Below, piece after piece: positions 23,764 through 63,992 of a stretch of 64,000 nucleotides of DNA. A program made the translations under genes and the position numbers. The first letter of the stretch is position 1, and each line of letters begins with the position of its first letter. The DNA is from Sulfuricurvum sp. (GTDB taxonomy: Bacteria > Campylobacterota > Campylobacteria > Campylobacterales > Sulfurimonadaceae), in the NCBI RefSeq assembly GCF_028710345.1, contig NZ_JAQTUH010000005.1:1-64000 (forward strand), written 5' to 3'. A model generated the notes under the pieces. The model was not told the DNA's origin and did no database searches. It saw nothing but the letters and a program-made list of their open reading frames with translations.

Positions 23764-25004
23764 AGCCAAAAGTTTATTTTAAAACGTTCGGTTGTCGCAC
23801 CAATCTGTTCGATTCCCAAGTGATGATGAGCGGTTTAAGCGACTATGAGGTGACGGAGAATGAATCCGAAGCTTCTATCGTTGTCGTTAATTCCTGTACG
23901 GTTACCAACGGTGCTGATGTAAGTGTTCGTGGCTATATTAATAGTGTCGAAAAGCGCGGACAAAAGATTTTTCTCACCGGTTGCGGTGCCCATACCAAAG
24001 GGGAGGGGCTTTTTGGTGCGGGGAAAGTACACGGCGTATTCGGTCAGTCGGAGAAGATGAAGATTAATACTCTTTTATCGACAACAGAGCGTTTTTATGA
24101 GATTGGAGATTTGAATTATATCGATGATGCGATTGTGGATGAGTTTATCGGAAAATCACGAGCATTTATCAAAATCCAAGAGGGGTGCAATTTTCGGTGT
24201 AACTACTGTATCATCCCCTTTGTTCGCGGTGATGCACGGAGTATGGATGAATCTAAGATTTTAGAACAAGTGAACCGTTTGGCGGGGAATGGATTTGGGG
24301 AGTTTGTCCTAACGGGGACCAATGTCGGAAGTTATGGTCAAGGCGAGGGGCGTAATATTGCGGAACTGATGAAAAAGATGTCCCTCATCCGTGGTGTGCG
24401 TCGTATCCGAGTAGGTTCACTCGAACCGATTCAGATTAATGACTCTTTTCGAGAAATATTGGGTGAATCGTGGTTGGAGAGACATCTCCATATTGCGATA
24501 CAACACAGCTCCAATGAGATGCTTCGCCTGATGAACCGCCGTAACCGTTTTGAGAGTGATCGTGAACTTTTTGGGATGTTGCATGAGCGCGGATTTGCTT
24601 TGGGAACCGATTTTATCGTCGGGCATCCGGGGGAGAGTGATGCGTTGTGGGAAGAGGCAATGAAAAATATTCAAGAGCTTCATTTGACACACATACACCC
24701 CTTTACCTACTCCAAGCGTGATGGTACACCGAGTGCTCTGATGAAAGATCAAATTAACGGCGCAGTATCGAGTAAACGTCTTGCGGAACTTAATAGTTTA
24801 ATAAATGCGAATAATCTCCGATTTCGCCGAAACGTTACTTCTCCACTCGATATTTTAGTAGAATCAGGAGATAATGGACTTTACAGCGGTTTGGATCAAT
24901 TTTTTAATAAGATTGTTATAAAAAGCGATGAAGATTTAGCGGGAAATTGGATTACACTAGAGAAATACGAGGTAGAAAATGAACATAACACAGCTCAAGT
25001 TTAA
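23760..25004 (+). CDS. mtaB: tRNA t6A37 methylthiotransferase MtaB
   Basis: A 414-residue radical SAM methylthiotransferase. The N-terminal UPF0004 domain has the three auxiliary-cluster cysteines (FGCRTN, NSCTVT, TGCGAH). The radical SAM motif is CNFRCNYC near residue 145. The overall pattern (IQEGCNFRCNYCIIPFVRG, then TGTNVGSYG) is of the MtaB type, converting t6A to ms2t6A at A37 of tRNA-Lys. TsaE, acting on the same tRNA position, is encoded in the same window. It overlaps mscS by 4 bp and the FtsH-like gene by 26 bp. Confidence 0.88.
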   Translation: MKPKVYFKTFGCRTNLFDSQVMMSGLSDYEVTENESEASIVVVNSCTVTNGADVSVRGYINSVEKRGQKIFLTGCGAHTKGEGLFGAGKVHGVFGQSEKMKINTLLSTTERFYEIGDLNYIDDAIVDEFIGKSRAFIKIQEGCNFRCNYCIIPFVRGDARSMDESKILEQVNRLAGNGFGEFVLTGTNVGSYGQGEGRNIAELMKKMSLIRGVRRIRVGSLEPIQINDSFREILGESWLERHLHIAIQHSSNEMLRLMNRRNRFESDRELFGMLHERGFALGTDFIVGHPGESDALWEEAMKNIQELHLTHIHPFTYSKRDGTPSALMKDQINGAVSSKRLAELNSLINANNLRFRRNVTSPLDILVESGDNGLYSGLDQFFNKIVIKSDEDLAGNWITLEKYEVENEHNTAQV

Positions 25005-26649
25005 TCGTAATCAGCTCATTGTATTAGCATCGGGGGGAATAATTCTTTTATTACTTCTGTATGCCCTTCTACGTGAGAGTAGTGCTCTTGTATCTCTTGA
25101 TGAAGCGACCCGTATTGTTCAGTCGAATCAAGTTGAAAAAGCGGTGATTGACGGAGGATATCTCTATCTTTTTACCGAAAAAGAGGGTGTTGCTAAAATT
25201 CCATCATCACAAGTCCCTTTAGAATTAACTTCACATCTCAAAATCGAGGAAAAAAAGTCGAATGGATGGATTTGGCTATTTTTGGTTGTAACGGTCATTT
25301 TAGGAGCTATCGGATGGGTTTATAATACTCGCCGTATCGATGCCATCGTTCATGAAGAGAGAACGCCACCTCCTTCACCGACTAAATCACTCGAAGCTGA
25401 AGCCTCGTCACCATCTTCACCCACTCCGGTAAAATCGACGGTGCGCTTTAGCGATATCGGTGGGATAGGTGATGTCAAAGAGGAACTCGAAGAGATTATC
25501 GATTTTTTACGCAATCCGAAACGCTACTACAGCTTTGGTGCCCGTATGCCACGCGGTGTATTGCTCGTAGGCCCTCCGGGCGTCGGTAAAACGATGATTG
25601 CCAAAGCGGTTGCCGCCGAAGCGGATGTCCCTTTTTTCTACCAAAGCGGTGCATCTTTTGTCCAAATTTATGTCGGGATGGGGGCAAAACGGGTACATGA
25701 ACTCTTTGCCGCCGCGAAAAAAAATGCCCCCTCCATCATCTTTATCGATGAGATAGATGCGGTTGGTAAAAAACGGGGTGGTGAGCGTAATGATGAGCGG
25801 GAGGGGACGCTTAATCAGCTCTTGACCGAGATGGATGGGTTTGAGGATACCAGCGGTATTATCGTCATCGCCGCTACCAACAATATCGATATTATGGACA
25901 GTGCATTGCTCCGTTCGGGGCGATTTGATCGTCGTGTTTTTGTGGAGCTTCCGACAGCAAGTGAACGTATCTCTATTTTGGAAAAATATCTCCACCATAT
26001 TCCGCACGATTTAAAAACCGAAGATGTCGCGAAAATGACGGTAGGATTTAACGGTGCTTCATTAGCCGCATTAGTCAATGAAGCGGCGTTATTATGTCTG
26101 CGTAACCGCGAATTTCAAGTCAACATGACCCATTTTTTAGCCGTCAAAGATAAAGTAATGTTGGGTAAAAAACGTCTCACCATGCTGAGCGATAAACAGC
26201 GTCAATATCAAGCACGTTATCAAGCGGGAAAAGTGTTTGCCGCTACATGGTTTGATTTAGCGTATGAAAAAATCACCCTCAGTAATGATACGATTACCCC
26301 TCCCGTCTCCGAGCCTCTGCTAAAACACGAGATTGAATCGCATGTACGGATACATCTCGCCGGACTCGCTGCGTGTGAGTTACGTTTCGGTGAACATGCT
26401 TCATCTGTATCGCATGATTTAGAGGTGGCTAGAACACTGGTAAAATCGATGGTTAATGAATACGGTATGGGAAGTTCACTCTTTCCAAAGCCAAGTGATA
26501 GTGAAGAGTTAATGAAACGGTTGTTCGAAGAGACGAAGATTTTATTGGAACGATATGAAAAACCGGTAGAGAAAATAGAGGCGATTTTGAGCGAATATGA
26601 ACATATCTCCAAATCGTTAGCCAAAGAGACTATGCGTGATATTTTATAG
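24979..26649 (+). CDS. FtsH-like membrane AAA ATPase lacking the zinc protease motif
   Basis: A 556-residue protein with two membrane helices (about 15-31 and 97-116) around a small periplasmic domain, then an FtsH-type AAA module: Walker A GPPGVGKT (198-205), Walker B IIFIDEID (253-260), pore-loop FVQIYVGMG, and arginine fingers LRSGRFDRR. The C-terminal region aligns with the FtsH peptidase domain, but HEAGH is replaced by YQAGK (Tyr414, Gln415, Lys418), so zinc cannot be bound in the usual way. The distal Asp-containing segment SHDLEVAR is still present. It is likely an unfoldase or scaffold without proteolysis. A similar protein occurs at this locus in Campylobacter as I recall. Confidence 0.88.
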
Positions 26650-27154
26650 CGGTTTTTCCCTCAAAAACGAGACTCACTATTTCGATAATTTTTTAGAAAA
26701 GAGTCTCTATAGCGTCGCTGGATTTAGCTACGGCTCCATCAAAGCGGCACACTATGCTCTCGAAGCAACCCATCGTATCGATACCTTGCAACTTTTTTCC
26801 CCAGCTTTTTTTCAAACACAAACTGAAGCGTTTAAAAAACTGCAACTAAAAGGATTCGTCCGCTCTCCACAAGGATATCGGGAGAGTTTTCTCATCAACT
26901 GCTTCTCCCCCTATCCCGTACATGACGTTGAACTCAATCATGAAGATAATGAGGAAAATCTCCGAGAACTTCTCTATTTTGAGTGGACAAACGAGTTGAT
27001 GGAGGCTATACGCTCCAAAGGGGTACGGATTGAGGTCTATTTAGGACTCGAAGATCGTGTGATAGATGTTGCAAGCACGCGCGAGTTTTTTCTCCCTTAT
27101 GCTACTGTCACATCGATTCGAAGAGGAAACCATTTTTTACAGGAGGGGCTGTGA
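26636..27154 (+). CDS. bioV: Pimeloyl-ACP methyl ester esterase BioV
   Basis: A 172-residue alpha/beta hydrolase of the BioV type described in Helicobacter. It frees pimeloyl-ACP from its methyl ester to end the first stage of biotin synthesis, the task done by BioH in E. coli. Visible: FYSGFSL at the N-terminus, nucleophile elbow GFSYGS, an acid in GLEDRV and the C-terminal histidine in RGNHFL. Start is GTG at 26636, overlapping the FtsH-like gene by 14 bp; the ATG at 26632 is in the other frame. The length fits BioV rather than the longer BioH. Confidence 0.82.
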   Translation: MIFYSGFSLKNETHYFDNFLEKSLYSVAGFSYGSIKAAHYALEATHRIDTLQLFSPAFFQTQTEAFKKLQLKGFVRSPQGYRESFLINCFSPYPVHDVELNHEDNEENLRELLYFEWTNELMEAIRSKGVRIEVYLGLEDRVIDVASTREFFLPYATVTSIRRGNHFLQEGL

Positions 27155-27155
27155 A

Positions 27156-27224
27156 ATGGATGGTATTAAAATCAGAAACCTCTTTAAACTTTATGAAGAG
27201 ATGATGGATAGGGAATCAAAATGA
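27156..27224 (+). CDS. 22-residue mini-ORF coupled to the DUF3800 gene
   Basis: ATG at 27156 reads 22 codons (begins MDGIKIRNLF, ends DRESK) and stops in TGA overlapping the ATG of the next gene (ATGA). No strong SD is seen, though it lies just after the bioV stop and could be reached by re-initiation. It may be a leader that couples translation, or a remnant of a longer gene lost when DUF3800 was placed here. I do not recognise it. Confidence 0.3.
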   Translation: MDGIKIRNLFKLYEEMMDRESK

Positions 27225-27949
27225 ATTTCAGCAACTACATCGTTTATGTCGATGAAAGCGGTGACCATTCACTGACGTCTATCAATAAAGATTTCCCGAT
27301 ATTTGTTTTGGCTTTTTGTATTTTCGACAAAGAGAAGTATTCTCAAAGTGCAGTTTTAAAACTCAAAGATTTCAAATTTAAGCATTTCGGTCACGATATG
27401 GTGGTGCTTCACGAAAATGAGATTCGTCGAGATAAGGGTTGGTTCAAAATTCTTAATTCAAAAGAGAAAAAAGAGGCTTTTATAGATGAATTGACACAAA
27501 TCATCTATGAGGAAGATTTTACGATTATCGCTACGGTCATCCAAAAAGACAAACTGTTCAGTCATACGAATAGTCCATACGATATCGCTCTAAAATATTG
27601 CATGGAGCGAACCTATCGATTTTTGGAATCGAAAAATGAACATACTAAAATGACACATATCATCGTAGAACAACGAGGGAAAAACGAAGACGAAGAATTG
27701 GAACTCGAATTTCGCAGAGTATGCGACGGATATAACTTTAAAAATATACGGTTTCCTTTTGAAATTATTCTCGCCAATAAAATGAGCAATTCAGCAGGTT
27801 TGCAACTGGCTGATTTGGTGGCTCGACCGATTGGATTGAGTGTTCTCAAACCTGAACAGACAAATAGAGCATTTGAAGTGCTAAAAGATAAATTTCATAA
27901 ATCAGATAGTGGGAGAGTTGAAGGAGTTGGGCTTAAAGTATATCCATAA
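27221..27949 (+). CDS. DUF3800 family protein
   Basis: A 242-residue protein starting NFSNYIVYVDESGDHS; the YVDESGDH motif near residue 8-15, a later conserved Glu/Arg region (IIVEQRGKNEDEELE) and the C-terminal SAGLQLADLVARP motif mark DUF3800. The family has an RNase H-like fold with conserved acidic residues and is often found in mobile or defence contexts, but its activity is not settled. An SD (TAGGGA, 6 nt) precedes the ATG. It sits between bioV and mogA without functional relation to either, so it is probably an accessory gene. Confidence 0.82.
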   Translation: MNFSNYIVYVDESGDHSLTSINKDFPIFVLAFCIFDKEKYSQSAVLKLKDFKFKHFGHDMVVLHENEIRRDKGWFKILNSKEKKEAFIDELTQIIYEEDFTIIATVIQKDKLFSHTNSPYDIALKYCMERTYRFLESKNEHTKMTHIIVEQRGKNEDEELELEFRRVCDGYNFKNIRFPFEIILANKMSNSAGLQLADLVARPIGLSVLKPEQTNRAFEVLKDKFHKSDSGRVEGVGLKVYP

Positions 27950-28011
27950 AAAGCAAAAAGCCCCAGAGAATCCTCTGAGGCTTGAAGCCGATCGCCAATC
28001 TGCAATCCAGT
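27950..28011 (-). ncRNA. Candidate small RNA with its own promoter and terminator
   Basis: On the minus strand a strong promoter (28018-28047) would start RNA near 28011. The transcript runs about 60 nt and ends in a terminator: arm AGCCUCAGAG (27982-27973), loop GAUU, arm CUCUGGGGCU (27968-27959), then UUUU-GC-UUUU to about 27951. All ten base pairs form in this orientation (one U-G wobble), whereas the plus-strand copy has an A-C mismatch and no U tract, so the element is oriented minus. The transcript reaches the stop codon of the DUF3800 gene, so it is convergent to it. No ORF is evident inside. I cannot name a family. Confidence 0.65.
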
Positions 28012-28017
28012 GTAGTT

Positions 28018-28047
28018 ATTATACTCAAGTTTTATTTAAATTGTAAA
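28018..28047 (-). promoter_or_regulatory. Sigma-70 promoter of the candidate small RNA
   Basis: TTTACA at 28047-28042 and TATAAT at 28023-28018, separated by 18 bp, on the minus strand. This is one of the best-matching vegetative promoters in the window, in a stretch with no minus-strand protein gene to serve. Confidence 0.65.
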
Positions 28048-28107
28048 GAAAACTTCAAAAGATTAGGAGAACAAACGTGACTTTATTTATTAATTTAGGA
28101 GAAAATA

Positions 28108-28629
28108 ATGATTAAAATAGGGGTTATTACCGCATCAGACCGTGCAAGTGCAGGGATTTATGAAGATATTTCAGGGGTTGCGATCCAAGAGTCGATGAAG
28201 GATTATCTAAAATCTGAACATGAGATTGTGTACCGTTGTATCCCTGATAATCAAGATACGATTGAAGAGACGATGATGGAGTTGTGTGATCGTGAGGGGT
28301 GCTGTTTAGTAGTAACAACAGGAGGGACAGGTCCTGCACGTCGTGATGTGACTCCTGAGGCGACGGAGAACGTCTGTGAGAAGATGATGCCGGGGTTTGG
28401 TGAGTTAATGCGTTCTGTGAGCCTTAAATACGTCCCTACAGCGATCCTTTCACGTCAGACGGCGGGAATCCGTGGCAAGAGCCTTATCATCAATCTTCCG
28501 GGGAAACCTAAATCGATTCGTGAATGTTTGGACGCGGTATTTCCTGCTGTGCCGTATTGCATCGATTTGATTGAGGGACCCTATTTGGAATGTAACGAAG
28601 CGGTTATTAAAGCGTTTCGTCCCAAATAG
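28108..28629 (+). CDS. mogA: Molybdopterin adenylyltransferase MogA
   Basis: A 173-residue protein of the MogA/MoaB fold that adenylates molybdopterin before molybdenum insertion. Visible: GVITASDRASAGIYED at the start, the substrate loop TTGGTGPARRDVTPEAT, and PGKPKSIRECLDAVFPAVPYCIDL near the end. The AGGAG site is 6 nt before the ATG. mobB at 48001 belongs to the next steps of the same cofactor pathway. A GTG at 28077 with its own AGGAG could make a 12-residue leader overlapping the start, which I consider unproven. Confidence 0.93.
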   Translation: MIKIGVITASDRASAGIYEDISGVAIQESMKDYLKSEHEIVYRCIPDNQDTIEETMMELCDREGCCLVVTTGGTGPARRDVTPEATENVCEKMMPGFGELMRSVSLKYVPTAILSRQTAGIRGKSLIINLPGKPKSIRECLDAVFPAVPYCIDLIEGPYLECNEAVIKAFRPK

Positions 28630-62348: not shown

Positions 62349-63992
62349 ATGATTTTACATGATTATGAAATTGACCCCAAATATACAACATGTGTCGCTT
62401 ATTTTTCGATGGAGTTTGCTATCCATCAAGCACTCAAAATTTATTCTGGGGGATTAGGATTCTTAGCCGGTTCGCATATGCGAAGTGCCTACGATCTACG
62501 TCAAAATGTTGTCGGAGTCGGTATTCTTTGGAGTTTTGGATACTATGACCAATCACGTCATGAAGACCGCTCTTTAGAAGCGGAATTTATCCGTAAACAT
62601 TATTATTTCCTTGAAGATTTAGGGATACAGGCTACGGTACATCTTCATTCTCAAGATGTTTACATCAAAGCTTTTTATCTTCCCGCCAATATTTTTAGTT
62701 CAGCTCCTATGATTTTGCTCTCTACCGATATCCCTGAAAATGATTTTTTGGCCCGTACTATTACTCATAAACTCTATGATAATAATGAGGAGACACGTAT
62801 CTCTCAAGAGATCGTATTGGGAATCGGTGGTGTAAAAGTTCTTGATGCGCTTAGACAGCCGATTGATATTTATCATATGAACGAAGGGCATGCAATGCCG
62901 CTTGTTTTTGAACTTTATGCCAAATATCAAAATATGGACGAAGTCAAAAAACGGGTTGTATTTACAACCCATACCCCTGAAGATGCGGGAAATGAACAAC
63001 ATAATATCAATCTGCTCCATAAATTCGGATTTTTTGACGGGTTGCAGTTAGATACGGTACGTTCGATTATGAAAATGGAAAATGATGAGATGTTTAATCT
63101 TACTATCGGAGCATTGCGTTCGAGTAAAATCACCAATGCTGTTTCCAAAATGCACGGTGAAGTAGCAAATCGTATGTGGCTCGATTGTGTAGGTCGTTCT
63201 GAAATTATCCATATTACCAATGCTCAAAATCGTCGTTTTTGGACAGATGGAGGGATGCTTACTGCTCTTGATGATCATGAGGATTATGCCCTTATCGGAA
63301 GGAAAAAACACCTTAAACGAGAACTCTTTAATGTTGTTGCCGATCAAACGGGGAAAATGTTTAATCCAGATGTATTAACGATTGTGTGGGCACGTCGTTT
63401 TGCAGAATACAAACGTCCTGGATTGCTCAAGCACGATTTTGCCCGTTTTAAAAAGCTACTAGAACGCAAGGAAAAGCCGATTCAGGTTATATGGGCAGGA
63501 AAACCCTATCCATTTGATACGAATGCTGTCAATGCATTTAATGAATTGATTCATATTAGTCATGGAATAAAAAATATGGCGGTATTGGTAGGCTATGAGC
63601 TTGAACTCTCTCGAATTTTGAAAAAAGGGTCAGACGTATGGCTTAATACTCCGCGTGTTTCTCGTGAAGCGAGTGGAACGAGCGGTATGACAGCGAGCAT
63701 GAATGGATCTATTCACTTTTCAACGAATGATGGATGGCATCCTGAATATGCAAAACATGGTATCAATGCATTTACTATCCCCGAAATAGATCATACTACC
63801 CCTATAGAGGTACAAGATCGTGAAGATAATAAAAATTTGATGGATATTTTAGAAAATGAAATAATCCCAATGTATTACGATCATGTTGAGCAGTGGACAC
63901 AAATTATGAAAAATACGATGAGCGATGTTATCCCCGCATTTGACTCAGGGCGAATGGCACATGAGTATTATGTGAAGATGTATACCATTTAA
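62349..63992 (+). CDS. glgP: GT35 alpha-glucan phosphorylase-like protein with altered PLP site
   Basis: A 547-residue protein of the short alpha-glucan phosphorylase type: YFSMEFAIHQ, YSGGLGFLAGSHMRSAYDL, NEGHAMPLVFEL, RRFAEYKRPGLL and EASGTSGMTASMNGS. In GT35 phosphorylases the last motif reads GTxxMK and the Lys carries pyridoxal phosphate; here the codon is ACA, Thr448. Two other usual residues are changed (LAGD to LAGS, AGKAHP to AGKPYP). It may thus not be a normal phosphorylase. The ATG at 62349 has GAGG 5 nt upstream. Last gene of the glycogen operon visible; 8 bases remain after it. Confidence 0.85.
   Translation: MILHDYEIDPKYTTCVAYFSMEFAIHQALKIYSGGLGFLAGSHMRSAYDLRQNVVGVGILWSFGYYDQSRHEDRSLEAEFIRKHYYFLEDLGIQATVHLHSQDVYIKAFYLPANIFSSAPMILLSTDIPENDFLARTITHKLYDNNEETRISQEIVLGIGGVKVLDALRQPIDIYHMNEGHAMPLVFELYAKYQNMDEVKKRVVFTTHTPEDAGNEQHNINLLHKFGFFDGLQLDTVRSIMKMENDEMFNLTIGALRSSKITNAVSKMHGEVANRMWLDCVGRSEIIHITNAQNRRFWTDGGMLTALDDHEDYALIGRKKHLKRELFNVVADQTGKMFNPDVLTIVWARRFAEYKRPGLLKHDFARFKKLLERKEKPIQVIWAGKPYPFDTNAVNAFNELIHISHGIKNMAVLVGYELELSRILKKGSDVWLNTPRVSREASGTSGMTASMNGSIHFSTNDGWHPEYAKHGINAFTIPEIDHTTPIEVQDREDNKNLMDILENEIIPMYYDHVEQWTQIMKNTMSDVIPAFDSGRMAHEYYVKMYTI

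Follow-up and report, generated by a model that had tools for sequence, protein, structure and literature searches.

An unannotated small RNA, encoded on the minus strand of Sulfuricurvum sp. DNA and ending where a DUF3800 gene on the opposite strand stops, very probably is a dedicated functional partner of that protein, as suggested by its conservation in unrelated hosts. Comparison reveals, on the minus strand, two conserved hairpins whose pairs covary, and links the RNA to this DUF3800 subfamily in phages, plasmids and no fewer than four groups of bacteria. Protein and RNA probably belong together as a single unit, with an anti-phage or toxin-antitoxin pair as the most likely kind. The DUF3800 protein, of unknown function, is widespread and a known companion of small RNAs; the present analysis defines one such pair, a 64-nt RNA with a structure supported by covariation and a predicted RNase H nuclease, which are linked strictly one to one in several bacterial groups and have defence genes or phage repressors as neighbours. 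The features of the locus, numbered in the window (the whole stretch of 64,000 nt that was analysed), are the following:

27156..27224, plus strand: 22-codon ORF MDGIKIRNLFKLYEEMMDRESK, read from the sequence, overlapping the DUF3800 start (ATGA)
27221..27949, plus strand: DUF3800 gene, 242 aa, Pfam PF12686
27948..27958, minus strand: U-rich tail UUUUGCUUUUU, overlapping the DUF3800 stop codon
27949..28012, minus strand: small RNA gene, matched by the covariance model R1 of the family (68.4 bits, E 1.5e-19), this copy being one of the model's 45 seeds and its score thus partly by construction
27952..27989, minus strand: helix P3, GGC/GCU, 27989-27987 with 27954-27952, which encloses the terminator stem and abuts H1
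27958..27983, minus strand: terminator hairpin H2, AAGCCUCAGAG-GAUU-CUCUGGGGCUU, 11 pairs
27990..28007, minus strand: hairpin H1, GAUUGC/GCGAUC plus an A-G mismatch, loop GAUU, the most conserved part
28018..28023, minus strand: −10 element TATAAT, read from the sequence, relatives having sigma-70-like pairs in the corresponding position
28042..28047, minus strand: −35 element TTTACA, on the same grounds as the −10 element

The two promoter elements stand 18 nt apart and match the consensus at 11 of 12 positions, and both this promoter (28047-28018, minus strand) and the intrinsic terminator (27983-27958) are found as an earlier reading of the DNA, made from the sequence only, had described them. 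Judging from the distance to the −10 element, the RNA likely starts at A28011 or C28012; its 3′ end lies within the U tract, at about 27949, and meets the stop codon TAA of DUF3800 (27947-27949), the DNA downstream of the terminator stem having the tail TTTTGCTTTTT. The minus strand folds with −28.6 kcal/mol (z −4.6), and none of 200 shuffled sequences was equally stable. Promoter-like sites occur in the window at chance level (13 observed, 10 expected), and the promoter therefore has no significance alone. The pattern of promoter plus terminator is by itself weak evidence, and the support beyond chance is comparative. A second match of R1 in the window, at 63451-63515 with 11.8 bits, was treated as chance.

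Such comparative support came from 45 distinct RNA sequences, which were aligned with MAFFT by sequence only, without structure. The consensus comprises two consecutive hairpins over 64 positions, with 94.2% of the cells paired (97% in H1, 95% in P3 and 92% in H2), and RNAalifold, unaided, arrived at nearly the same structure. Sixteen of the 20 pairs change on both sides, and the cells with such double changes number 121 vs 36 in shuffles, with none of 500 shuffles as good. When the partners were moved by one column, pairing fell to about 54% (55% at most among the slid controls), in a control that leans in favour of the structure because this was defined after viewing the same 45 sequences. 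Pairing on the plus strand reaches 72.2% vs the 94.2% of the minus strand, which pairs better because of conserved G-U pairs, in agreement with the strand specificity previously claimed for the hairpin. H1 and P3 are directly adjacent and can stack.

The leading 30 nt of the RNA had been taken as unstructured and free to base-pair with targets, a view that the comparison does not support: this stretch holds hairpin H1 (28007-27990), followed by the 5′ side of the helix around the terminator stem. In seven Campylobacterota copies, the 23 nt that run from UGG to the end of H1, loop included, are 96% identical, vs 44% for the 45 bp upstream. Conservation extends to every helix and to the 5′ part, with no long variable stretch and thus no variable guide segment. 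On the other hand, both promoter and terminator are kept in relatives, the point on which the sequence-only reading had proposed beforehand to be judged. In 24 of 54 relatives there is, at the right distance, a promoter-like pair with at least 9 of 12 matches, and the mean match in these 54 is 6.3 of 12 vs 2.8 in shuffles.

Beyond what had been read from the window, the RNA turned out to be a constant companion of DUF3800. It occurs in convergent orientation, just 3′ of DUF3800 homologues, in Campylobacterota, in Alpha-, Beta- and Gammaproteobacteria, and on plasmids and phages. The RNA was detected at 94 of 100 homologue loci (model E < 0.001, opposite strand, next to the stop), a set with near-identical copies, so that the 94 are not independent events; the claim of a self-contained minus-strand gene abutting the 3′ end of DUF3800 is in this way borne out by homologous RNAs. 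In nearly all copies the distance to the stop codon is 0-20 nt. The model gave no match in the remaining six loci, all of them more distant, where elements of similar look were seen by eye in two (L158, L161), a different element in three (L063-L065) and L083 completes the list. A search of IMG/VR with the protein alignment yielded 77 loci, nearly all carrying the RNA, while a single protein as query gave no match in the viral contigs.

The covariance search proposed for related genomes was done with R1 over 397 Campylobacterota genomes and gave 11 matches. Each of the seven matches that reach 48 bits is separated by 2-4 nt from a DUF3800 stop codon, and a weaker one (22.9 bits, G014) also adjoins a DUF3800 gene; the matches in G329, G177 and G316 (20-27 bits) lack a DUF3800 of this kind alongside and were treated as chance. 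Seen from the protein side, the DUF3800 subfamily at E < 1e-20 was present in nine genomes, eight with the RNA beside the gene plus G012, whose DUF3800 gene is one of those accompanied by the other element. In a different genus and at an unrelated site, G146 (L062) carries a homologue with 75% amino acid identity and the same element after the stop, with stems that are changed yet still paired. A homologue with 78% identity from Aliarcobacter (L067), the one relative found when genome contigs were searched for the protein with overly strict patterns, has the same RNA element, and so do four further genomes of the phylum, with the gene intact or broken. A BLASTN search of the RNA region against 100 relatives returned only the window itself and chance fragments, because the close relatives are without the module, and two distant DUF3800-RNA pairs searched in E. 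coli genomes gave no match.

Among plasmids, the RNA was found in those of Bradyrhizobium, Paraburkholderia, Novosphingobium, Methylorubrum, Shinella, Devosia, Sinorhizobium, Microvirga and Methylobacterium, and it also occurs in an Acinetobacter record and in the phages JBD68 and Pkon1. The record NZ_CP104448.1 of Acinetobacter baumannii, listed as a plasmid, measures 4.09 Mb and presumably is a chromosome. Each DUF3800 gene has one RNA copy, and where there are two genes, as in Shinella (W07), there are two RNAs. In two cases only, the RNA stands beside a broken DUF3800: in G330 (L072), where the gene is interrupted by in-frame stops or a frameshift and the RNA is intact at 48 bits, and in the Devosia plasmid CP104975.1 (L176, 1605-1749), where an extra RNA lies beside a decayed DUF3800 end.

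The genomic setting of the module differs from copy to copy. The window has, at the junction with mogA, some 950 bp (roughly 27143-28094) that contain DUF3800 and the RNA, adjoining this molybdopterin gene and outside any defence island. Thirty loci of the same genus were fetched for mogA and, the window's aside, 29 upstream regions were read, all of them without DUF3800 and the RNA. In 27 of the 29, only a few bases separate the ATG of mogA from the end of the gene before it (CATTTTTTACAGGAG or close variants); L045 has other DNA at this place and L047 was read on the wrong strand. Copies elsewhere have other neighbours, and a role for mogA was rejected, as the mogA regions read in relatives have no such RNA upstream. 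In the same window, the region 24979-26649 encodes an AAA protein that resembles FtsH, matches peptidase M41 in part (profile positions 57-153) and may be a divergent paralogue of FtsH.

Elsewhere, the module is found inside type I restriction-modification operons, between hsdM and hsdS (L067, L068) or between hsdS and hsdR (L070), it adjoins an integrase in L069, and the PADLOC candidates PDC-S49, S31 and S34 adjoin it in L062, L067 and L072 (the one in L067 being DUF2971), defence-type neighbours that are to be taken as individual instances. PADLOC holds no model for this DUF3800. In the Pseudomonas phage JBD68, where the RNA occupies 28250-28315 of the record, the start of DUF3800 (jbd68_43) and the end of an S24/CI-type repressor gene overlap; in the Paracoccus phage Pkon1 the gene follows that of a CI-like repressor. 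Sites beside CI-type phage repressors are typical for genes expressed in lysogens.

As for the protein, its membership in PF12686 is clear (78 bits vs a cut-off of 21, E 1.6e-21), and the AlphaFold2 model has a pLDDT of 92. The only Foldseek matches below E 0.001 were RNase HII structures (1eke, E 7.1e-5), and superposition with 1eke gave Z 10.8 over 161 residues with an rmsd of 3.4, the values for Argonaute PIWI domains being Z about 8-10, with 9.9-10.3 among the best matches. DUF3800 is therefore predicted to adopt an RNase H fold of the RNase HII/PIWI type. The motif D11-E12-S13-G14 is invariant in both alignments and resembles the D-E-A-G motif of RNase HII; the invariant acidic residues are D11, E12, E150, E156, D157 and D198, and the putative catalytic residues are assigned by motif and fold. 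The short ORF that overlaps the start of the gene is a possible leader for translational coupling with DUF3800. An RNase H fold with catalytic rearrangement and an association with ncRNAs have been noted for DUF3800, and fusions of it with TPR are also found next to Cas12a2 (PMC10910872).

The reading that explains these data best, to which we give an even chance, is a two-gene RNA-protein module where the RNA binds and restrains the nuclease. The gene of an RNase H-fold nuclease would be paired with a convergent structured RNA that has a promoter of its own, ends at the stop codon of DUF3800 and would act by binding the DUF3800 protein through the conserved shape and sequence of the RNA, not through target pairing. 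Binding to the protein is itself probable, because the sequence and shape of H1 are kept, there is no variable guide and the hosts are unrelated. The RNA would be made steadily from a strong promoter and the nuclease held inactive, as in type III toxin-antitoxin systems, until a phage infection shuts off transcription in the host or changes the RNA; the freed nuclease would then act on RNA or RNA-DNA hybrids. An inhibitory direction of the effect on DUF3800, argued by analogy, we rate just below an even chance: RNA left intact beside broken DUF3800 genes (L072, L176) is what one would expect if the protein does the harm and is lost first, and inhibitor and activator directions predict the same conservation. 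In its widest form, our proposal is tentative: an undescribed structural type of DUF3800 RNA and an RNase HII/PIWI-like protein might constitute a compact RNA-controlled anti-phage nuclease distributed in Campylobacterota, Pseudomonadota, plasmids and prophages. If true, it would represent a new layout for an RNA-antitoxin or RNA-cofactor system, with a single-copy, convergent RNA under its own promoter. The role of the RNAs that accompany DUF3800 becomes directly testable with two short genes, including the pair on JBD68, a Pseudomonas phage used in the laboratory.

The main rival to the inhibitor model is an activator model, where DUF3800 needs the bound RNA as a scaffold or sensor for target cleavage, the RNA being an activating or recognition cofactor. 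We see it as a possible reading, though an unlikely one: an RNase HII/PIWI-like fold next to a very conserved RNA would fit it, RNA-dependent nucleases are common in defence, and TPR-fused DUF3800 is found next to Cas12a2 (PMC10910872), but the retention of the RNA beside broken DUF3800 genes is odd for a mere cofactor and there is no variable guide segment. More doubtful is a control of DUF3800 by the convergent RNA gene through transcriptional collision or pairing with the 3′ UTR of the mRNA. The orientation, the 0-20 nt to the stop codon in nearly all copies and the lack of a plus-strand terminator before the RNA, which makes any read-through mRNA fully complementary, are all in keeping with it, yet complementarity requires no conserved structure, and here 16 of 20 pairs covary and the H1 loop is kept. 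A trans-acting sRNA that base-pairs with other genes, as originally read from the window, would agree in size, promoter and terminator with sRNA genes; it is now very improbable, the supposed free leader being a conserved hairpin and the strict co-occurrence with DUF3800 in unrelated hosts being ill-suited to host mRNA targets. Finally, a mere terminator or chance promoter with no functional RNA, conceivable as promoter-like matches are common in the window by chance, is hardly credible given that H1, the most conserved part, lies outside the terminator, that covariation was matched by 0 of 500 shuffles and that there is a single copy per DUF3800.

Returning to the module of RNA and restrained nuclease, its nearest known counterparts differ from it in several respects. 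Type III toxin-antitoxin loci such as ToxIN, CptIN and TenpIN, carried by phages and plasmids, also combine a nuclease protein with a structured RNA partner in the same locus. Their RNAs, however, are tandem repeats upstream of the toxin and on its strand, whereas the window RNA is a single copy, downstream, on the opposite strand and under its own promoter, and their toxins have the ToxN fold while DUF3800 is predicted to be RNase H-like; the type III layout of tandem, upstream, co-directional repeats is thus absent from the DUF3800 module. With RNase HII and Argonaute PIWI, the protein shares the predicted fold and the D-E-S-G motif, but the identity is at most 13% and DUF3800 is a stand-alone protein of 242 aa without guide-loading domains. 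The variable guide segment that marks the RNA of RNA-guided, Argonaute-like systems is absent here.

Small structured RNAs beside DUF3800 genes form a class already, and in many taxa the window RNA has this same position. The motifs of the 2017 work of Weinberg are reportedly numbered from I to XI. At the Rfam cut-offs, no family was matched by the window RNA or by the other members scanned, and the DUF3800 models of Rfam gave no match among the members scanned even at E up to 10. The motif DUF3800-IX (RF02968, cut-off 36.8 bits) had no match in the window or in the loci of 28 relatives, and it is a three-way junction, unlike the two consecutive hairpins seen here. DUF3800-I (RF02969, cut-off 44.2 bits), which spans 115 positions vs 64 for the window RNA type, had no match in the window or in G000; a search over 150 genomes was also without matches, with a control equally silent that makes it uninformative. 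The kind, a DUF3800 with its own RNA, is thus already known, and the present type is without an Rfam match at cut-off; its architecture is unlike that of DUF3800-I and -IX, and it could be a motif of Weinberg 2017 absent from that database. DUF3800-associated RNA motifs are recorded in Weinberg et al. 2017, as cited in PMC10910872, and in Rfam (RF02969, RF02968).

The sRNA BjrC68 of Bradyrhizobiaceae (RF02353) also consists of a hairpin plus a terminator, and weak matches of its model fall exactly on the RNA in L142, L105, L129, L075, L141 and L096. None reached the cut-off of 39 bits (the best, in a relative, had 31.8 bits) and none was in the genome of the window. Of 14 unrelated control genomes, 9 likewise had matches of this model below the cut-off; given these, the similarity may be that of a generic hairpin, and kinship was not accepted. 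BjrC68 annotations below the cut-off look unreliable.

Other DUF3800 subfamilies of the phylum show arrangements of their own. In the subfamily IFCDESNHL (L185-L192, L194, L197, L198, L206) the gene is followed by a short downstream gene in an apparent operon, and no convergent RNA was seen in these loci. In the subfamily YIFVDESGD.DF (L195, L202, L204, L205), the position just 3′ of the gene is taken by another element, convergent and conserved, AAAGGUUCCnAnCUA...UAGGUAGnAUnGGUCA. In L195, where it lies at about 1342-1402, and only there, a weak DUF3800-IX match was obtained; RF02968 found no match in the genomes of another DUF3800 subfamily, and the match in L195 is therefore only a hint. 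A third type of element, AATTGATCACTGCGTAGCGGGGGTCAATT, stands directly after the DUF3800 stop codon, with an upstream TATACT, in L063, L064 and L065, three genomes of the same genus whose DUF3800 is 39% identical to that of the window. With these convergent elements in other subfamilies, the arrangement of a convergent RNA at the 3′ end of the gene seems to be general for part of the DUF3800 family.
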